Shown in pieces: positions 28,197-33,744 of a DNA stretch of 64,000 nucleotides (position 1 is the stretch's first letter; every line of letters starts with the position of its first letter). A program made the position numbers and the translations under genes. The notes under the pieces are model-generated. The model saw nothing but the letters and a program-made list of their open reading frames with translations. It made no database searches and was not told the DNA's origin. The stretch comes from Anaerolineales bacterium (GTDB lineage: Bacteria > Chloroflexota > Anaerolineae > Anaerolineales > UBA11579), in contig JAHBVC010000001.1 of the NCBI GenBank assembly GCA_019637755.1, forward strand, positions 1,330,480 through 1,394,479, given 5' to 3'.

Positions 28197-29126
28197 TTAG
28201 TTCTCTTTACGAGTCAAAAGTTTGTAGGCCTTGTAGACCGTCTCAATGGCGGTGACGACCATGGCGATGGACAGCGTGATCTGGATGATGCTGTTGACGA
28301 TGTCCATGTCGCTGAACATGGCGTTGCGCACCAAGGTGTAGAGTAAGCCTACCGCGGCGAGATTGAGCGCCACCTGCACCCAGCGCAGGGCTTTGGTCCA
28401 GCGCTGGCTGCGGTAGACGGCGGCCTTGAGAGCCAGCTCGCCCAGCCACAGTGCGCTCATCAGGGGGACGAAGCGCAGGAAGCTGTTGGTGAGCACGGGG
28501 ATGAGCTCAAAGCGCCCGTCTTGCCAGCCACCGATGCCAATCCATTGCGGGGCGAAGTTGAAGACGAGCAGCGCCAGCAAGGTGAAGAGCATACCGACCA
28601 GCACCTCGGTACGGTTGACGCGGTTGGGGTCTTGCACTTGCGGCAACTTGGCTGGGTCCCACGTGGTTGCGGCGGGCGGCTGCTGGCCGACGCCGAAGGC
28701 TTGCAGGCCCACGAACACGGCGACCACGACGCCGAGGTTGAAGATGAGGGCCTGGGCCAGCTCAAGCACGAACTTGAGCAGCTCGGCGGCACTGAAGCCA
28801 GCCTGGGTGACTTGCAGGGCGAAGCCGATGGCAAAGACGATGCCGACCACAATGGCGGCGATGGTGTAGCTGAGGCGGAAGGCCGGGTACAGCCAGTGGC
28901 CGATGAGGCTCTTTTCTTTTTGGTAGCTGGCGGCCAGCACTTCAGGATGGCCGTATTCACGCAGCAGGGCGCTGATGGCCTGGCTGTCTGTCTCGCTCAG
29001 GCCGCGTTCGGCGGCGGCGTCCTGCAGCAGGCTGCGCAGCTCTTGCTGCACATCGTGGCGGGTCTTGGCGGGCAAGTGCGCGCCGACCTCGTGTACGTAA
29101 CGTTCGATAAGGTTGCTGTCTTTCAT
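28197..29126 (-). CDS. HAAS-domain membrane protein (first copy)
   Basis: I choose ATG 29126, which overlaps the PadR stop (TAATG); a longer open frame upstream is antisense of padR. The 309-residue protein has the HAAS domain (LIERYVHEVGAHLPAKTRHD in part, LREYGHPEVLAASY) and about six membrane helices. The next gene follows after a one-base gap. The pair probably arose by tandem duplication and acts downstream of the PadR regulator. Confidence 0.84.
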   Translation of the reverse strand: MKDSNLIERYVHEVGAHLPAKTRHDVQQELRSLLQDAAAERGLSETDSQAISALLREYGHPEVLAASYQKEKSLIGHWLYPAFRLSYTIAAIVVGIVFAIGFALQVTQAGFSAAELLKFVLELAQALIFNLGVVVAVFVGLQAFGVGQQPPAATTWDPAKLPQVQDPNRVNRTEVLVGMLFTLLALLVFNFAPQWIGIGGWQDGRFELIPVLTNSFLRFVPLMSALWLGELALKAAVYRSQRWTKALRWVQVALNLAAVGLLYTLVRNAMFSDMDIVNSIIQITLSIAMVVTAIETVYKAYKLLTRKEN

Positions 29127-29479
29127 TACTTGTCTCCGTGTAAGAGGCCGTTCAGCGCCTGGCTGATGGCCTGCCATTCGTGGGTGAGATCGGCCAGGGC
29201 TTGTTGGCCCTGGGCGCTGATGCGGTAGTAGCGGCGCGGCCGCGCCTCGTCTACTACGCGCCATTCGCTCTCGAGCAGGCCTTGCGCCTCCAGCCGGCGG
29301 AGGAGCGGGTACAGCGTGCCCTCGGGGATATCCATGCCTTGGGCGGCGAGCTGCTGTTTGAGCGAGTAGCCGTATTGGGGCTGGCCGAGTTGGCTGAGTA
29401 CAGCCAGGCTGAGTGCGCCACGGCGCAGCTCGCCCACCAGCCCTTCCAACAATGCGGGGTACTCTTCTTTGGTTACCAT
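29126..29479 (-). CDS. PadR-family transcriptional regulator
   Basis: 117 residues, the short PadR class. The winged helix is plain: LRRGALSLAVLSQLGQPQYG in part, YSLKQQLAAQGMDIPEGTLY in part, PLLRRLEAQGLLES, then RRYYRISAQGQQAL. PadR proteins usually repress their own operon in response to a small ligand or membrane stress. A near-perfect inverted repeat sits between the -35 and -10 boxes, supporting self-repression. The ATG lies at the expected transcription start, so the message is probably leaderless. Confidence 0.92.
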   Translation of the reverse strand: MVTKEEYPALLEGLVGELRRGALSLAVLSQLGQPQYGYSLKQQLAAQGMDIPEGTLYPLLRRLEAQGLLESEWRVVDEARPRRYYRISAQGQQALADLTHEWQAISQALNGLLHGDK

Positions 29480-29486
29480 GTGGGGA

Positions 29487-29516
29487 ATTGTACTGTGTAT
29501 AACATAGTAATGTCAA
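29487..29516 (-). promoter_or_regulatory. padR promoter
   Basis: On the minus strand TTGACA (29516-29511), 18-base spacer, TACAAT (29492-29487). The predicted start at about 29480 meets the ATG at 29479. Confidence 0.7.
29491..29509. promoter_or_regulatory. Probable PadR operator
   Basis: TACTGTGTATAACATAGTA is a 19-bp inverted repeat with one mismatch per 8-base arm, filling the promoter spacer. TACT and AGTA ends with this spacing fit the known PadR-family operator style. Confidence 0.62.
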
Positions 29517-29574
29517 CGACAAATATAAAGAAAAGTAAAGTCCCAAAAAAGCTAAGTACCTGCTAAGAAGAAAA

Positions 29575-29599
29575 AGAGAGCGTCACTGTGACGCTCTCT
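29575..29599 (-). terminator. Intrinsic terminator of the AIPR gene
   Basis: AGAGAGCGTCAC and GTGACGCTCTCT around one base, followed on the minus strand by TTTTTC. Confidence 0.82.
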
Positions 29600-29624
29600 A
29601 GTGGTGTGCTCCGCATTAATTAAG

Positions 29625-30809
29625 TTAGGCTTGCAGGTAGGCTAATTGGGCGTTTTGATAACAGCTTTGCCAAACCAAGGCCGTTTTTCCAACTTTGGTC
29701 GGGTTTTGTGCCTGATGAGCAAAGGTGCCAATTGTGTTGGCCAGCTTTGTGCCCAAATCACCCTTGAGCAACGTGACTGGATCTAGACCCTTTCCCCATT
29801 TGTAGACTCCCTTGTGCTCCTCAAGCAATGCCCGAAAAGCAGCAAGGACCGGATAGGTAAAGCCATCCGGCACTCCATACTTAGTTGTCTTGTTCAAGAA
29901 ATACAACTTTCCTGAACGCTGTCCGGTATAGTAGGTCACACCTGTCAAACGTCCAAAGCGACCACCAGAAACATTTGCTTCCTGGGCTCTTGCTTTGTTG
30001 TAGAGATCAGGCAGCTCTAGTTTCACCCAATCGTACAACTCAAGAATTTCTTCCGCCAAGGGAAAGATTTTTTCATATTCCTTTGGGTTTGCGGAAAAAT
30101 GCTCCAAAGCTTTGGACTTCGCGTTGTACGAAATTACTGGGTGCTGGGAGTCGCCAAAGCTCTTTTTATCGAAAAGAGTGAGTATTGCAACTACATCCCT
30201 CACTCCAATGGGTTTGAGATCTCCAGCCCCGTCAACTTCGTACTCCGAGTAGGAGATTTGGTCTCTAAACGCAGAAGAACTCAACGCGTTTTTTAAACCA
30301 ACAAACTTGTTGGCGAGATTCATCAAGCTTTGCTCTCGTACCGGCTTTGAGGTGTTACGCGCATCTACAACATCCACGATCCCTTCTGAATCAAGCCCTT
30401 CAAGGAGCTCAATCCGAATGTACTGTGGGACAGTGAGGCTTTCTGTTTCTTCCTTGACAATACTATAGGTGTGTCCACCATCTAAAAGCCCATGAAGATT
30501 TCGGTCTTCAAGAACAATCGTGAGAGTGGAATTTCGGTTATCCAGCTGTGCTTTCGCGACAGAGAGTACTAGGCCGCGATTCATGAACAAAAACATTTCA
30601 GGATTTGCTTGAAATGTTTTTCGAATCGCGTCCGGAACCTCACCGGTTAATTTTGCATCGCGGACGTTTATGTCCTTCCAGTCAGAAAGGTCTGGAAGGT
30701 TTGCCGTCTCAACTACAGCAAAATACTCGTGGATACCCTTATGTTGGAATGGTGTATCAAGGTGACGAAAAGAAACTACTGGAAATGTAAACGTTGCTGT
30801 CTTGGACAT
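29625..30809 (-). CDS. AIPR-family (abortive phage resistance type) protein
   Basis: I choose MSKTATFTF at 30809, preceded by AAAGGAT; an upstream ATG at 30845 lacks such a site. The 394-residue protein resembles AIPR proteins (abortive infection, phage resistance): FLFMNRGLVLSVAKA, LHGLLDGGHTYSIV, and VDVVDARNTSKPVREQSLMN in part, matching the family's N-R-G and D-G-x-H-T / N-T-S-x-x-V signatures. Its G+C is visibly lower than its neighbours, it is alone, and it is bounded by a gene-free stretch, all signs of recent transfer. A nuclease or restriction partner is not seen. The role in phage defence is inferred from the family. Confidence 0.78.
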   Translation of the reverse strand: MSKTATFTFPVVSFRHLDTPFQHKGIHEYFAVVETANLPDLSDWKDINVRDAKLTGEVPDAIRKTFQANPEMFLFMNRGLVLSVAKAQLDNRNSTLTIVLEDRNLHGLLDGGHTYSIVKEETESLTVPQYIRIELLEGLDSEGIVDVVDARNTSKPVREQSLMNLANKFVGLKNALSSSAFRDQISYSEYEVDGAGDLKPIGVRDVVAILTLFDKKSFGDSQHPVISYNAKSKALEHFSANPKEYEKIFPLAEEILELYDWVKLELPDLYNKARAQEANVSGGRFGRLTGVTYYTGQRSGKLYFLNKTTKYGVPDGFTYPVLAAFRALLEEHKGVYKWGKGLDPVTLLKGDLGTKLANTIGTFAHQAQNPTKVGKTALVWQSCYQNAQLAYLQA

Positions 30810-31150
30810 AAAATCCTTTCCGACAAGGGGTTCACCCTTAGTCATCCCAATGAGATTTCTCTACATCAGGCAGTAGGCTGCGGAGCACTACTAGACGTAG
30901 TGTACCGCAGATATTTACTGATTGTGTGGCAGCCTCTGTTCCACAACAAATGTTCTAGCGTTCCAGTCTCAAACGCCCCATGCTTCTATCCCTGTATTAA
31001 CACTGCTTGCCAATAGCGCCCATTCGCCACTCCCCCATGGCATAAACAGACGCATGCCCCATCAGCCTTCCGGACCTTTAAGTCATCGATAGTCAGCTCA
31101 AGTCCCTAACCCTCCTCTATTGACACGAATCCAACATTTCTCTTACGCGT
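30810..31150. other. Gene-free stretch upstream of the AIPR gene
   Basis: About 340 bases of lower G+C without a credible coding region. It holds one imperfect inverted repeat at 30878-30910 (CTGCGG, CACTAC / GTAGTG, CCGCAG). This may be the junction of an inserted defence gene. I see no terminal repeats, integrase or tRNA nearby. Confidence 0.6.
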
Positions 31151-31154
31151 TTCT

Positions 31155-31184
31155 ACGACAGCCGTCAGCCTGCCCCTATATAAT
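31155..31184 (+). promoter_or_regulatory. Candidate promoter for clpC
   Basis: ACGACA (31155-31160), 18-base spacer, TATAAT (31179-31184). The -35 is weak. No CIRCE inverted repeat is visible between here and the ATG. Confidence 0.45.
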
Positions 31185-31263
31185 CTTCCCATCCCCGCGA
31201 CGGGCGATTTATGACTTTCAATAAGATTGCTGCCCACGGGCGGCGGTTAGGTAGGAACCCACA

Positions 31264-33744
31264 ATGATGCGATTTGACCGATTTACCGAACGAGCCCAGG
31301 AAGCTGCTCAGCGGGCTGCTGAAATCATCCAGCGCTACGGGCACAACCAGATCGATACTGAACACATACTGCTGGCGCTGATTGAGCAGCCGGAAGGCGT
31401 CATCGGGCAGCTGTTGGAGATTCTCAAAGTAGACCCGGCCTCCCTGAAGGAGCGCCTGGACTACGTGTTGCGCACCAGCCCCAAGGCCAACATCTTTGGC
31501 GGCGGCGCCGGGCAGATTTTTATCACGCCGCGCGTCAAGCGCATCGTAGACATCGCCAATGAGGAGGCCAACCGCCTCAAGGATGAGTACATCTCCACTG
31601 AGCACATCTTCCTGGCCATCCTCAACGAGCGCAGCACCCCGGCCGCCCGCCTGCTCGAAGGTGCCGGCATCACGCGCGAGCGCGTGTTTGACGCGGTGCA
31701 GCAGCTGCGCGGCGGACAACGCGTTACGGACCCGCAGGCCGAGACGCGCTATCGCACGCTGGAGAAGTACTCGCGTGACCTGACCCAGGCGGCCCGCGAG
31801 GGCAAGCTGGACCCGGTGATTGGGCGTGACAGCGAGATTTTGCGCGTGATTCAAATTCTTTCGCGCCGCAGCAAAAACAACCCGGTCCTCATCGGTGAGG
31901 CCGGCGTGGGCAAGACAGCCATCGTCGAGGGTCTGGCGCAGAAAATCGCTACCAACGACGTGCCCGAGATTCTTTCGGGCAAGAAGGTGCTCTCGCTGGA
32001 CCTGGGCGCCATGATCGCCGGCTCGCGCTTCCGCGGCGAGTTCGAGGAGCGCCTCAAGGCTACGCTGGAGGAAATCCAGCGCGCTGAAGGCGAGATTATC
32101 TTGTTCATTGACGAGCTGCACACCGTCGTTGGCGCCGGCGCCGCTCAAGGCGCCATGGACGCCAGCAACATGCTCAAGCCGGCGCTGGCGCGCGGCGAGC
32201 TGCACGCGGTGGGCGCTACTACGCTGGATGAGTATCACAAGCACATCGAGAAGGACGCCGCGCTCGAGCGCCGCTTTGCGCCCGTGTATGTGGAAGAGCC
32301 TTCGATGGAAGACAGCATTCAGATGCTGATGGGCCTGCGTGACCGTTACGAGGCGCACCACAACGTGCGCTTTGCCGACGATGCGCTGGTGGAAGCCGTC
32401 AAGCTCTCTGCCCGCTACGTGCCCGACCGCCGCCTGCCCGACAAAGCTATCGACCTGATGGACGAGGCGGCCGCCAAGCTGCGCGTGGCGCTGTACTCGC
32501 TGCCGGATGAGCTCAAGGTAATGAAGACGGAAATCGAGCGTCTGCAAGCCGAAGAAGAGCAAGCCGGCGTGGAACGCAACTACGAGCGCGCCGCCGAGAA
32601 GAAATCCGAGCGTCTGCGCATCGAAGGCGAGTTCAAGGCCAAACGCGAGACCTGGGAGAGCGAACACCAGCTCGACGAAGTCGTTGACATCAACGACATC
32701 GCGGAGGTGATCGCGCAGTGGACCGGTATCCCTGTGAGCCAGATGATGGAGACGGAGGCTGAGAAGCTGCTCAACATGGAAGCGCGCCTACACGAGCGCA
32801 TTGTGGGCCAGGGTGACGCCATCAGCGCCATCTCTGACGCCATTCGCCGTGCCCGCTCGGGCCTCAAGGACCCCAAGCGCCCGATTGGCTCGTTCATCTT
32901 CATTGGCCCCTCTGGCGTCGGCAAGACCGAGCTGGCCAAGGCGCTGGCCGAGTTCATGTTCGATGATGAAGATGCGCTGGTGCGTATCGACATGTCTGAG
33001 TACCGCGAGCAGCACACCACGGCGCGCCTGTTCGGCGCCCCTCCGGGATATATCGGCTACGAGGAAGGCGGCCAGCTGACGGAAGCCGTGCGCCGCCGCC
33101 CCTACCGCGTGATCCTTTTCGATGAGATCGAAAAGGCGCACCCGGATGTATGGAACGCCCTGCTGCAAATCCTGGACGACGGTCGCCTGACCGACGGCCA
33201 GGGCCGCACAGTCGACTTCCGCAATACGGTGTTGATTATGACCAGCAACCTGGGCACCGAGTTTGTGCGCAAAGCTGGCTCGCTGGGCTTCCTGCAGAAC
33301 AGCGGTGATGACGAAGAGCGTGCTTCCAGCCAGAAGATCCAGAAGGCGCTGCGTGACACCTTCCGCCCCGAGTTCATCAACCGTATCGACGAGATCATCA
33401 CCTTCTCGCCGCTCTCGGTGGAGGACATGAAGCAGATCGTGGACCTGCAGATGAAGGAAGTGCAGGAACGCCTGTCTGAGAAGGGTATCCAGGTGCTGCT
33501 GACCGAGAACGCGCGTGAGTGGCTGGCCACGCAAGGCTACGATACGGCCTTCGGTGCCCGCCCGCTCAACCGTGCGCTGCAGAAGTTCGTGGAGAGCCCG
33601 CTCTCCAAGGAGCTGCTGGCCGGCAAGTTCAAGCCCGGCACCACCATCGAGGTGGATGTGGATGAGAAACGCGAGGGCACGGTCTTCAAAGAAGGCAAGC
33701 CCATCCGCGTGGACAAGCAGCCGGAAGACGTATCCGCTGCGTAA
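31264..33744 (+). CDS. clpC: ATP-dependent unfoldase ClpC (first copy)
   Basis: 826 residues. This Hsp100 ring ATPase unfolds proteins, usually for ClpP. Two N-terminal Clp repeats (residues about 5-140) precede AAA-1 (Walker [10 protein letters not shown] near 215; Walker [11 protein letters not shown]), a short coiled middle domain (about 415-475, ClpC-length rather than the long ClpB propeller), and AAA-2 (GPSGVGKTE near 548; [13 protein letters not shown]). The ClpP loop motif is not obvious by eye. A second clpC lies at 53629-56166. Confidence 0.93.

Follow-up and report, generated by a model that had tools for sequence, protein, structure and literature searches.

The 64,000-nt stretch of DNA analysed here (the window) includes a short AIPR gene (29625..30809, complementary strand) that makes up a single-gene insertion at a variable site of a Chloroflexota genome, encodes a protein with a predicted ParB/sulfiredoxin (Srx)-like core, and belongs to a clade in which bulged hairpins precede the gene throughout. 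The favoured reading, given a probability of roughly 0.45, is that of a horizontally mobile one-gene cassette for abortive infection, the short AIPR protein being an effector that has no fixed partner protein and would be restrained by RNA.

The AIPR open reading frame (ORF) reaches 30845. The start codon is probably codon 13, the ATG at 30809, as relatives begin there and the ribosome-binding-site-like sequence GGAAAGGA (30814..30821, complementary strand; read by eye) is located upstream; the product from this start has 394 aa. The ORF matches Pfam AIPR (PF10592) over residues 60–377 with an E value of 1.2e-22 and 81.5 bits (cut-off 25), and is the only AIPR gene in the 2.26-Mb genome. Its G+C content is 0.46 versus near 0.60 in the flanks, with 0.45–0.46 in 1-kb intervals across 29501–31000 and 0.55–0.66 in most others. 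An intrinsic-terminator-like hairpin (29575..29599, complementary strand) of 11 perfect base pairs followed by the T-rich TTTTCTTCTT lies about 25 bases 3' of the stop codon. Thus, the AIPR signatures, the lower G+C content than in both flanks and the gene's own terminator reported in a preliminary description of this DNA were all confirmed. The terminator scan found 2 terminator-like sites compared with 2.5 in shuffled sequences, and the number alone is not significant.

The gene is flanked by a padR-type regulator gene (29126..29479, complementary strand) on the left and a Clp ATPase gene (31264..33744, forward strand) on the right. In comparison with congeners, the common left flank ends at about 29516–29531, varying by congener, and the common right flank restarts near 30997, which places the insert at approximately 29532..30996 and leaves only the AIPR gene, its terminator and its leader within it. 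Of the 10 other congeners, 8 have both flanks, and the DNA between padR and clp differs from that of the window in all eight. A gene-free border of similar composition had also been described. This border is indeed low in G+C but is not a single piece, as DNA shared with congeners begins at about 30997 and a hairpin leader occupies 30821–30893.

The AIPR gene is present in 4 of 61 genomes of relatives, the window genome counted, so that conservation across all relatives at an equally low G+C content was rejected. Within the genus it was found only in the window genome (G000) and in one of the 10 other congeners (G008), at different sites. The G008 AIPR protein is 63% identical to that of the window, and its gene has a G+C content of 0.41 in DNA of 0.63. 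At the G008 site, the 95% identical congener G007 has 39 bases where G008 has 1,370 bases, and the 1.37-kb insert comprises the AIPR gene, a leader, and a hairpin with a T tail after the stop codon (hairpin identified by eye). As the inserts of G008 and the window contain just the AIPR gene with its leader and terminator, each is a one-gene cassette. These sequence comparisons support a recent horizontal arrival of the window gene on its own. A search for target-site repeats around the insert revealed only one 14-nt pair (93% identity), one copy of which is within the AIPR gene. A dispersed repeat, represented by a stretch of about 55 bases (query positions 1287–1344 of locus L055), occurs at many places in several congeners.

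The gap between padR and clp (29480–31263 in the window; loci L045–L053 in the congeners) holds differing genes across the genus, often of low G+C content. Clear matches to candidate defence families were found in the gap in 3 of 8 congeners, namely a DUF3644/PDC-S64 gene in G001 (PADLOC E 1.1e-28), an OLD/AriA-like ATPase gene in G009 (PADLOC E 4.4e-23) and a GmrSD_N/HEC-05 gene in G010 (Pfam E 5.5e-24). A PIN match in G002 and a HEPN match in G006 are both under the curated cut-off, and the one gene scanned in the G004 gap had no family match. The scans took in only the AAA_25 gene in G007 (Pfam and PHROGs), and the G008 gap was outside them. A HEPN_Swt1/PDC-M34B gene (PADLOC E 2.2e-31) occurs in G003, which is without the padR flank, and a clp match was not found in G005. 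A high-G+C gene for an AAA_25 ATPase is located in the gap of several congeners and is absent from the window (L046:7797–9206 and L050:8779–10092; L051 has a similar ORF), and the copy in L050 has matches to helicase-primase families of phages.

Relatives of the AIPR protein were collected by a scan with one genome per species, from which 80 of 106 relatives were kept as loci. Scans of viral sequences yielded none at first, then five and three loci. A plasmid search gave 11 records with short AIPR relatives, and tblastn with a clade member recovered the same plasmid records along with more distant ones, and three phage records. Scans of 301, 400, 400 and 396 Chloroflexota genomes, which were overlapping draws, added one new clade member. 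Broken, partial, over-long or duplicate sequences (L036, L042, L080, L129, L136, L137 and L145) were excluded before the tree was built, and L043 and L044 were never entered. The AIPR reading frames of L036, L042 and L136, all outside the window clade, are split, perhaps a sign of sequencing errors or of a toxic gene being lost.

In the tree, the window protein falls in a clade of 17 sequences with support of 100/99. The hosts of this clade include Chloroflexota, Acidobacteriota, Pseudomonadota, Sumerlaeota, Saccharimonadota and other groups, together with one viral contig. The tree contains 87 short AIPRs, of which 57 adjoin a helix-turn-helix (HTH) gene detected by profile search, all 57 being among the 70 outside the window clade; 3 of the 13 non-clade AIPRs lacking an HTH gene have 302 bases or fewer upstream. 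An HTH regulator is likewise annotated beside AIPR in 7 of the 9 plasmid regions inspected. The profile search found no HTH gene in any of the 17 clade members, the result being less sure for L065 with only 303 bases upstream. Three of the profile seeds (L142, L144 and L145) are not HTH genes, and matches from these were ignored. The neighbour-HTH profile was also run over the 1.1 kb upstream of the AIPR gene of the window and found no overlooked HTH gene. The earlier statement that no partner is seen has to be modified in view of the HTH genes beside other short AIPRs and of the hairpins that precede the gene in the window's own clade.

Within 5 kb of the AIPR gene, no other gene recurs in three or more loci (the 16 of the clade and the window), barring ORFs in other frames of the AIPR gene. 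The only candidates for a neighbour common to the clade, two unrelated-looking gene pairs found in two loci each (L061/L074 and L064/L073), were rejected. A Pfam scan of neighbours covered 5 of the 16 clade loci (L064, L069, L070, L071 and L075). In L075 the AIPR gene adjoins genes for a D12-class methylase and an AlwI-type endonuclease (L075:2971–6665), and in L069 it adjoins a gene for a type IIG-like enzyme (L069:3192–6695), in both cases divergently. Given these restriction-modification genes, a partner may exist in some hosts. A co-directional ORF of at least 100 aa within 100 nt occurs in 10 of 54 HTH loci and in 3 of 16 clade loci, the latter being an ORF in L061, a DUF5131 gene in L064 and an ORF without a Pfam match in L071.

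The suggestion that the gene works without a partner holds for proteins only. Neither of the findings named earlier as speaking against it, presence in every relative at equally low G+C content or a partner in the same operon at homologous loci, was made for the window's own clade, but L069 and L075 have the neighbouring restriction-modification genes, of two different types. Further from the window clade, a short AIPR gene of Terribacillus is followed by a Z1 gene that is a possible operon partner. A gene of about 730–750 aa lies closely 3' of HTH-associated AIPR genes in L083 (8205–10400), L091 (8146–10401) and L099 (5905–8109), and is possibly an operon partner there; the copies scanned, those of L083 and L099, had no Pfam match. 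None of five large genes scanned on the 3' side of distant short AIPR genes had a Pfam match.

The leader of the window gene includes three hairpins on the complementary strand. Hairpin A (30871..30893) was identified in its bulged form, and the minimum free energy fold favours a longer hairpin at this position. Hairpin B (30846..30870; CCUGAUG-U-AGA-GAAA-UCU-CAUUGGG) has U as the bulge and GAAA as the loop, and fits the consensus Y-AG..CU described below. Hairpin C (30821..30844) has a one-base 5' bulge. The whole leaders of the clade are too divergent for a MAFFT alignment to be read. The tandem hairpins share one architecture with differing sequences, and were counted with a general rule (a lower stem of at least 4 pairs, one unpaired 5' base, an upper stem of 3–6 pairs and a loop of 3–5).

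In the 17 clade leaders, each of 220 nt, 39 bulged hairpins were found versus 8.0 expected from 200 dinucleotide-preserving shuffles (sd 2.6, maximum 15). Control hairpins that were unbulged or had a 5' bulge of 2 nt, a 3' bulge of 1 nt or a 3' bulge of 2 nt numbered 10, 10, 4 and 6, respectively, compared with 6.7–8.1 expected. The bulged base is a pyrimidine in 32 of the 39, the next pair is A-U in 18 and the second pair is G-C in 18, all three features being combined in 15. Hairpins of this stricter form (Y-AG..CU), counted with slightly looser stem and loop limits than in the general rule, numbered 25 versus 1.9 in shuffles (maximum 6 of 100), and each of the 17 leaders has at least one. 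By the general rule, the hairpin count is individually significant (P≤0.05) in 7 of the 17 leaders and not in the other 10.

No such excess was observed in 60 leaders of the HTH group, which contain 3 Y-AG..CU hairpins versus 5.2 expected and 26 versus 35.3 by the general rule; this control takes in L080, L136 and L137 and uses gene starts from the ORF caller. Upstream of 93 other genes at the same loci there are 5 Y-AG..CU hairpins versus 7.1 expected, and the general rule gives a slight excess of 52 versus 42.6 (sd 5.4). The motif was discovered and counted in the same 17 sequences. A later member that was held out, L190, from another family of the same order, has three hairpins at −84, −60 and −32 (P 0.004 by the general rule; P 0.099, not significant, for the strict motif alone).

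A further count was confined to the last 100 nt upstream of the gene in the 11 rows of the window's subgroup and in L190. These 12 leaders contain 30 bulged hairpins versus 5.1 expected, with at least three in 7 of the 12, which never occurred in 200 shuffles, and at least two in 11 of the 12 (0.5 expected). Of five alternative bulge types, three were also raised in this set, at 11–12 versus about 5. The L067 leader has one hairpin under a relaxed rule. Overall, these counts indicate that the hairpin leader of the clade is very probably a real conserved RNA.

A promoter-like match is present in 9 of 18 leaders versus 3.8 expected in shuffles, and in six of them (L062, L064, L068, L069, L070 and L190) the promoter-like site ends 4–8 nt 5' of the first hairpin. 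In the window, no promoter-like match was found in the 300 nt upstream, and there is no terminator between the hairpin array and the AIPR gene. A terminator-like site separates the array from the gene in 3 of the 18 leaders (L070, L074 and L075).

The combination of a repeated hairpin near the start of the mRNA, the want of a fixed protein partner and the HTH gene of the sister groups suggests that RNA restrains AIPR. The hairpins would be placed at the 5' end of the mRNA, and they are probably bound by the AIPR protein. Binding would then neutralise AIPR in the manner of the RNA antitoxins of ToxIN and AbiF, a role given a little less than even odds. Because the last hairpin borders directly on the ribosome binding site, binding may also lower AIPR translation. 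Phage infection, by changing host transcription or RNA turnover, would lead to loss of the labile leader RNA, and the freed AIPR could act on a nucleotide or nucleic-acid substrate so that the infection is aborted. In the sister groups, the HTH protein would take the place of the RNA.

The strongest competitor of this reading, though a rather unlikely one, is that the hairpin array is a translational operator only. AIPR itself or an RNA-binding protein of the host would bind the array and restrain AIPR synthesis without neutralisation, and AIPR would be an effector kept off by low dosage or a missing ligand. The last hairpin does end at the ribosome binding site in most of the window's subgroup, where no terminator lies between the array and the gene. 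However, the hairpins of L070, L074 and L075 are located about 90–170 nt upstream of the gene and past the terminator-like site, as in type III toxin-antitoxin systems, and this arrangement fits a free RNA better than an operator.

Alternatively, the gene could have no antiviral role and be a selfish gene or a mobile addiction module, which is considered unlikely. This would accord with single-gene insertions at differing sites, with the patchy spread of the gene and with the occurrence of short AIPRs on small plasmids, which include ones of about 5.6 kb. Against it, several congeners have candidate defence genes at the window site and two clade members adjoin restriction-modification genes.

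The folded leaders of the clade show small hairpins in a row, with z scores from −3.4 to +0.9; the L061 leader folds no better than its own shuffles (z 0.89), and that of the window has z −3.0. A structured leader directly before the ribosome binding site could respond to a ligand or to the state of translation, as a riboswitch, attenuator or RNA thermometer does, with no binding by AIPR. This is distinctly improbable, as a small bulged hairpin that occurs two or three times resembles a set of repeated protein sites rather than one aptamer, and the lower-stem sequences vary freely. In alignments of equal-sized hairpins, both sides vary at all 7 pairs (12 hairpins) and at all 8 pairs (7 hairpins), where only the variety of pairs is informative because the helices were picked for pairing and are 100% paired by construction. 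A known RNA was rejected for the window leader, which has no Rfam match (30600–31300, up to E 5). At six further loci, Rfam gave nothing at the leaders, and a tRNA and two sub-threshold matches elsewhere.

The window protein has only the AIPR domain in Pfam, with no AIPR_N, Mrr_cat or HEPN domain. Its AlphaFold2 model (pLDDT 94.1, pTM 0.89) had no Foldseek match in the PDB at E≤0.001, and searching the PDB sequences with profile A2 gave no match. Structural realignment of the 1000 best Foldseek chains gave 16 PDB entries with Z≥2 (best Z 7.4). Thirteen of these are ParB, Noc, Spo0J, KorB, PadC or sulfiredoxin, two are SspE and one is uncharacterised; 94–125 residues are aligned, mostly residues 28–179 of the model. 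As all Z scores are below 8, the support for the ParB/sulfiredoxin superfamily is at the level of the fold only. Among viral structure models, only an AIPR protein (rank 1, E 2e-7) and an unnamed protein (rank 2) matched at E≤0.001, followed by a DNA-sulfur-modification protein (rank 3, E 0.0016) and a GmrSD N-terminal model (rank 4, E 0.0020). In profile comparisons, the DGGHT motif of the window protein is aligned on NGGQT of long AIPRs (E 2.1e-10, probability 96.8%, 137 columns) and on DGQHR of DndB (E 8.5e-4, probability 23.7%). The core of the window protein is thus predicted to be ParB/sulfiredoxin-like with a conserved DGGHT motif.

The nuclease core for which structure prediction had been suggested as a check is not supported, the core being ParB/sulfiredoxin-like in the model and no nuclease-type domain being found by Pfam, and this candidate was rejected on the lack of an Mrr_cat, AIPR_N or HEPN match. 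A stand-alone defence gene of nuclease type with incidental hairpins, which a single-gene insertion at a site with candidate defence genes in congeners would suit, is very improbable given this domain content and a strict hairpin motif that is specific to the clade with no excess in the controls.

In the text available from the sources consulted, AIPR is long listed among abortive-infection genes and is mostly described as an accessory of restriction systems. Makarova et al. 2012 (PMC3506569), in the portion available, connect DndB to AbiU1/AIPR and report an N-terminal HEPN domain in AIPR proteins, which is not seen in the window protein. Long AIPR/AbiU1 proteins (PF10592 with AIPR_N, PF22879, or Mrr_cat), including MzaE of the MZA system, belong to the same Pfam family. 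The window protein differs from them in having no recognised N-terminal domain and in having DGGHT in place of NGGQT. An AIPR_N or Mrr_cat-like domain was found in 3 of 4 long AIPRs scanned, one Mrr_cat match of 20.8 bits being just under the cut-off of 21. PADLOC, NCBIfam (up to E 1) and PHROGs gave no match for the window protein, and MzaE is among the families it does not match in PADLOC and NCBIfam. The G008 protein matches both MzaE (12.7 bits, E 0.0083) and an abortive-infection PHROG (E 2.1e-4), though only weakly.

Short AIPRs with an HTH gene, mostly on plasmids and chromosomes of Bacillota, e.g. Enterococcus plasmid PML21, are similar in length to the window protein and 26–34% identical to it. 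In these the HTH gene adjoins the AIPR gene, usually divergently, and, unlike in the window clade, the hairpin motif is not in excess. DndB and the GmrSD N-terminal domain (DUF262) resemble the window protein in combining a DGQHR/DGQQR-type motif with a ParB/Srx-like fold, according to the part of the source available (PMC4619093). In the window protein the motif is DGGHT and Pfam gives AIPR only, and its genome has no DndB match.

The nearest precedents for the proposed RNA appear, by analogy and from partial texts of the two reports, to be ToxIN-type systems (PMC8860590) and AbiF with its RNA RCd22 (PMC12373285). In the text available from the latter, the abortive-infection toxin gene is preceded by a repeated stem-loop non-coding RNA with a promoter upstream. 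AbiF (an Abi_2 HEPN toxin with the abiF RNA RF03085) is like the window in having hairpin RNA ahead of the gene, but AbiF has the HEPN fold, as opposed to the predicted ParB/Srx-like fold of AIPR, and the window leader has no RF03085 match. As given in the accessible text of the former, type III toxin-antitoxin systems are recognised by a promoter, an array of RNA repeats, a terminator and one protein gene. L070 has these elements in this order, as in ToxIN, CptIN and TenpIN. The repeats of the window clade, however, are alike in structure rather than in sequence, and the best fold matches of the window protein among the entries listed are ParB/Srx proteins, a list that may omit the ToxN/AbiQ-type endoribonuclease fold. 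As the window has no terminator between array and gene and no recognised promoter, and neutralisation is a proposal, it is not assigned to type III.

The ParB/Srx-fold AIPR with an RNA of two to three bulged hairpins, distributed over several phyla, mobile as a one-gene cassette and with RNA and HTH protein interchangeable, is tentatively proposed as a new protein-RNA class of toxin-antitoxin/abortive-infection systems. Among the papers listed by a literature search, which did not extend to preprints, supplements or most subscription journals, none describes an RNA antitoxin or RNA leader for AIPR. If the leader is an antitoxin or an operator, a single protein plus about 75 nt of RNA would be the smallest system in which to test the AIPR core, and RNA-restrained immunity would reach the ParB/sulfiredoxin fold. 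The swap of RNA for an HTH protein could then serve as a natural experiment to learn how cells silence a dangerous effector. The hairpin consensus could be used to search for more solitary defence genes.

Hairpins with a GGAU or GGAC loop, often two per leader, were observed at five HTH-less AIPR genes outside the clade (L104, L108, L110, L119 and L138). These are possibly a second type of RNA, and in this second HTH-less group they would mean co-evolution of protein and RNA.
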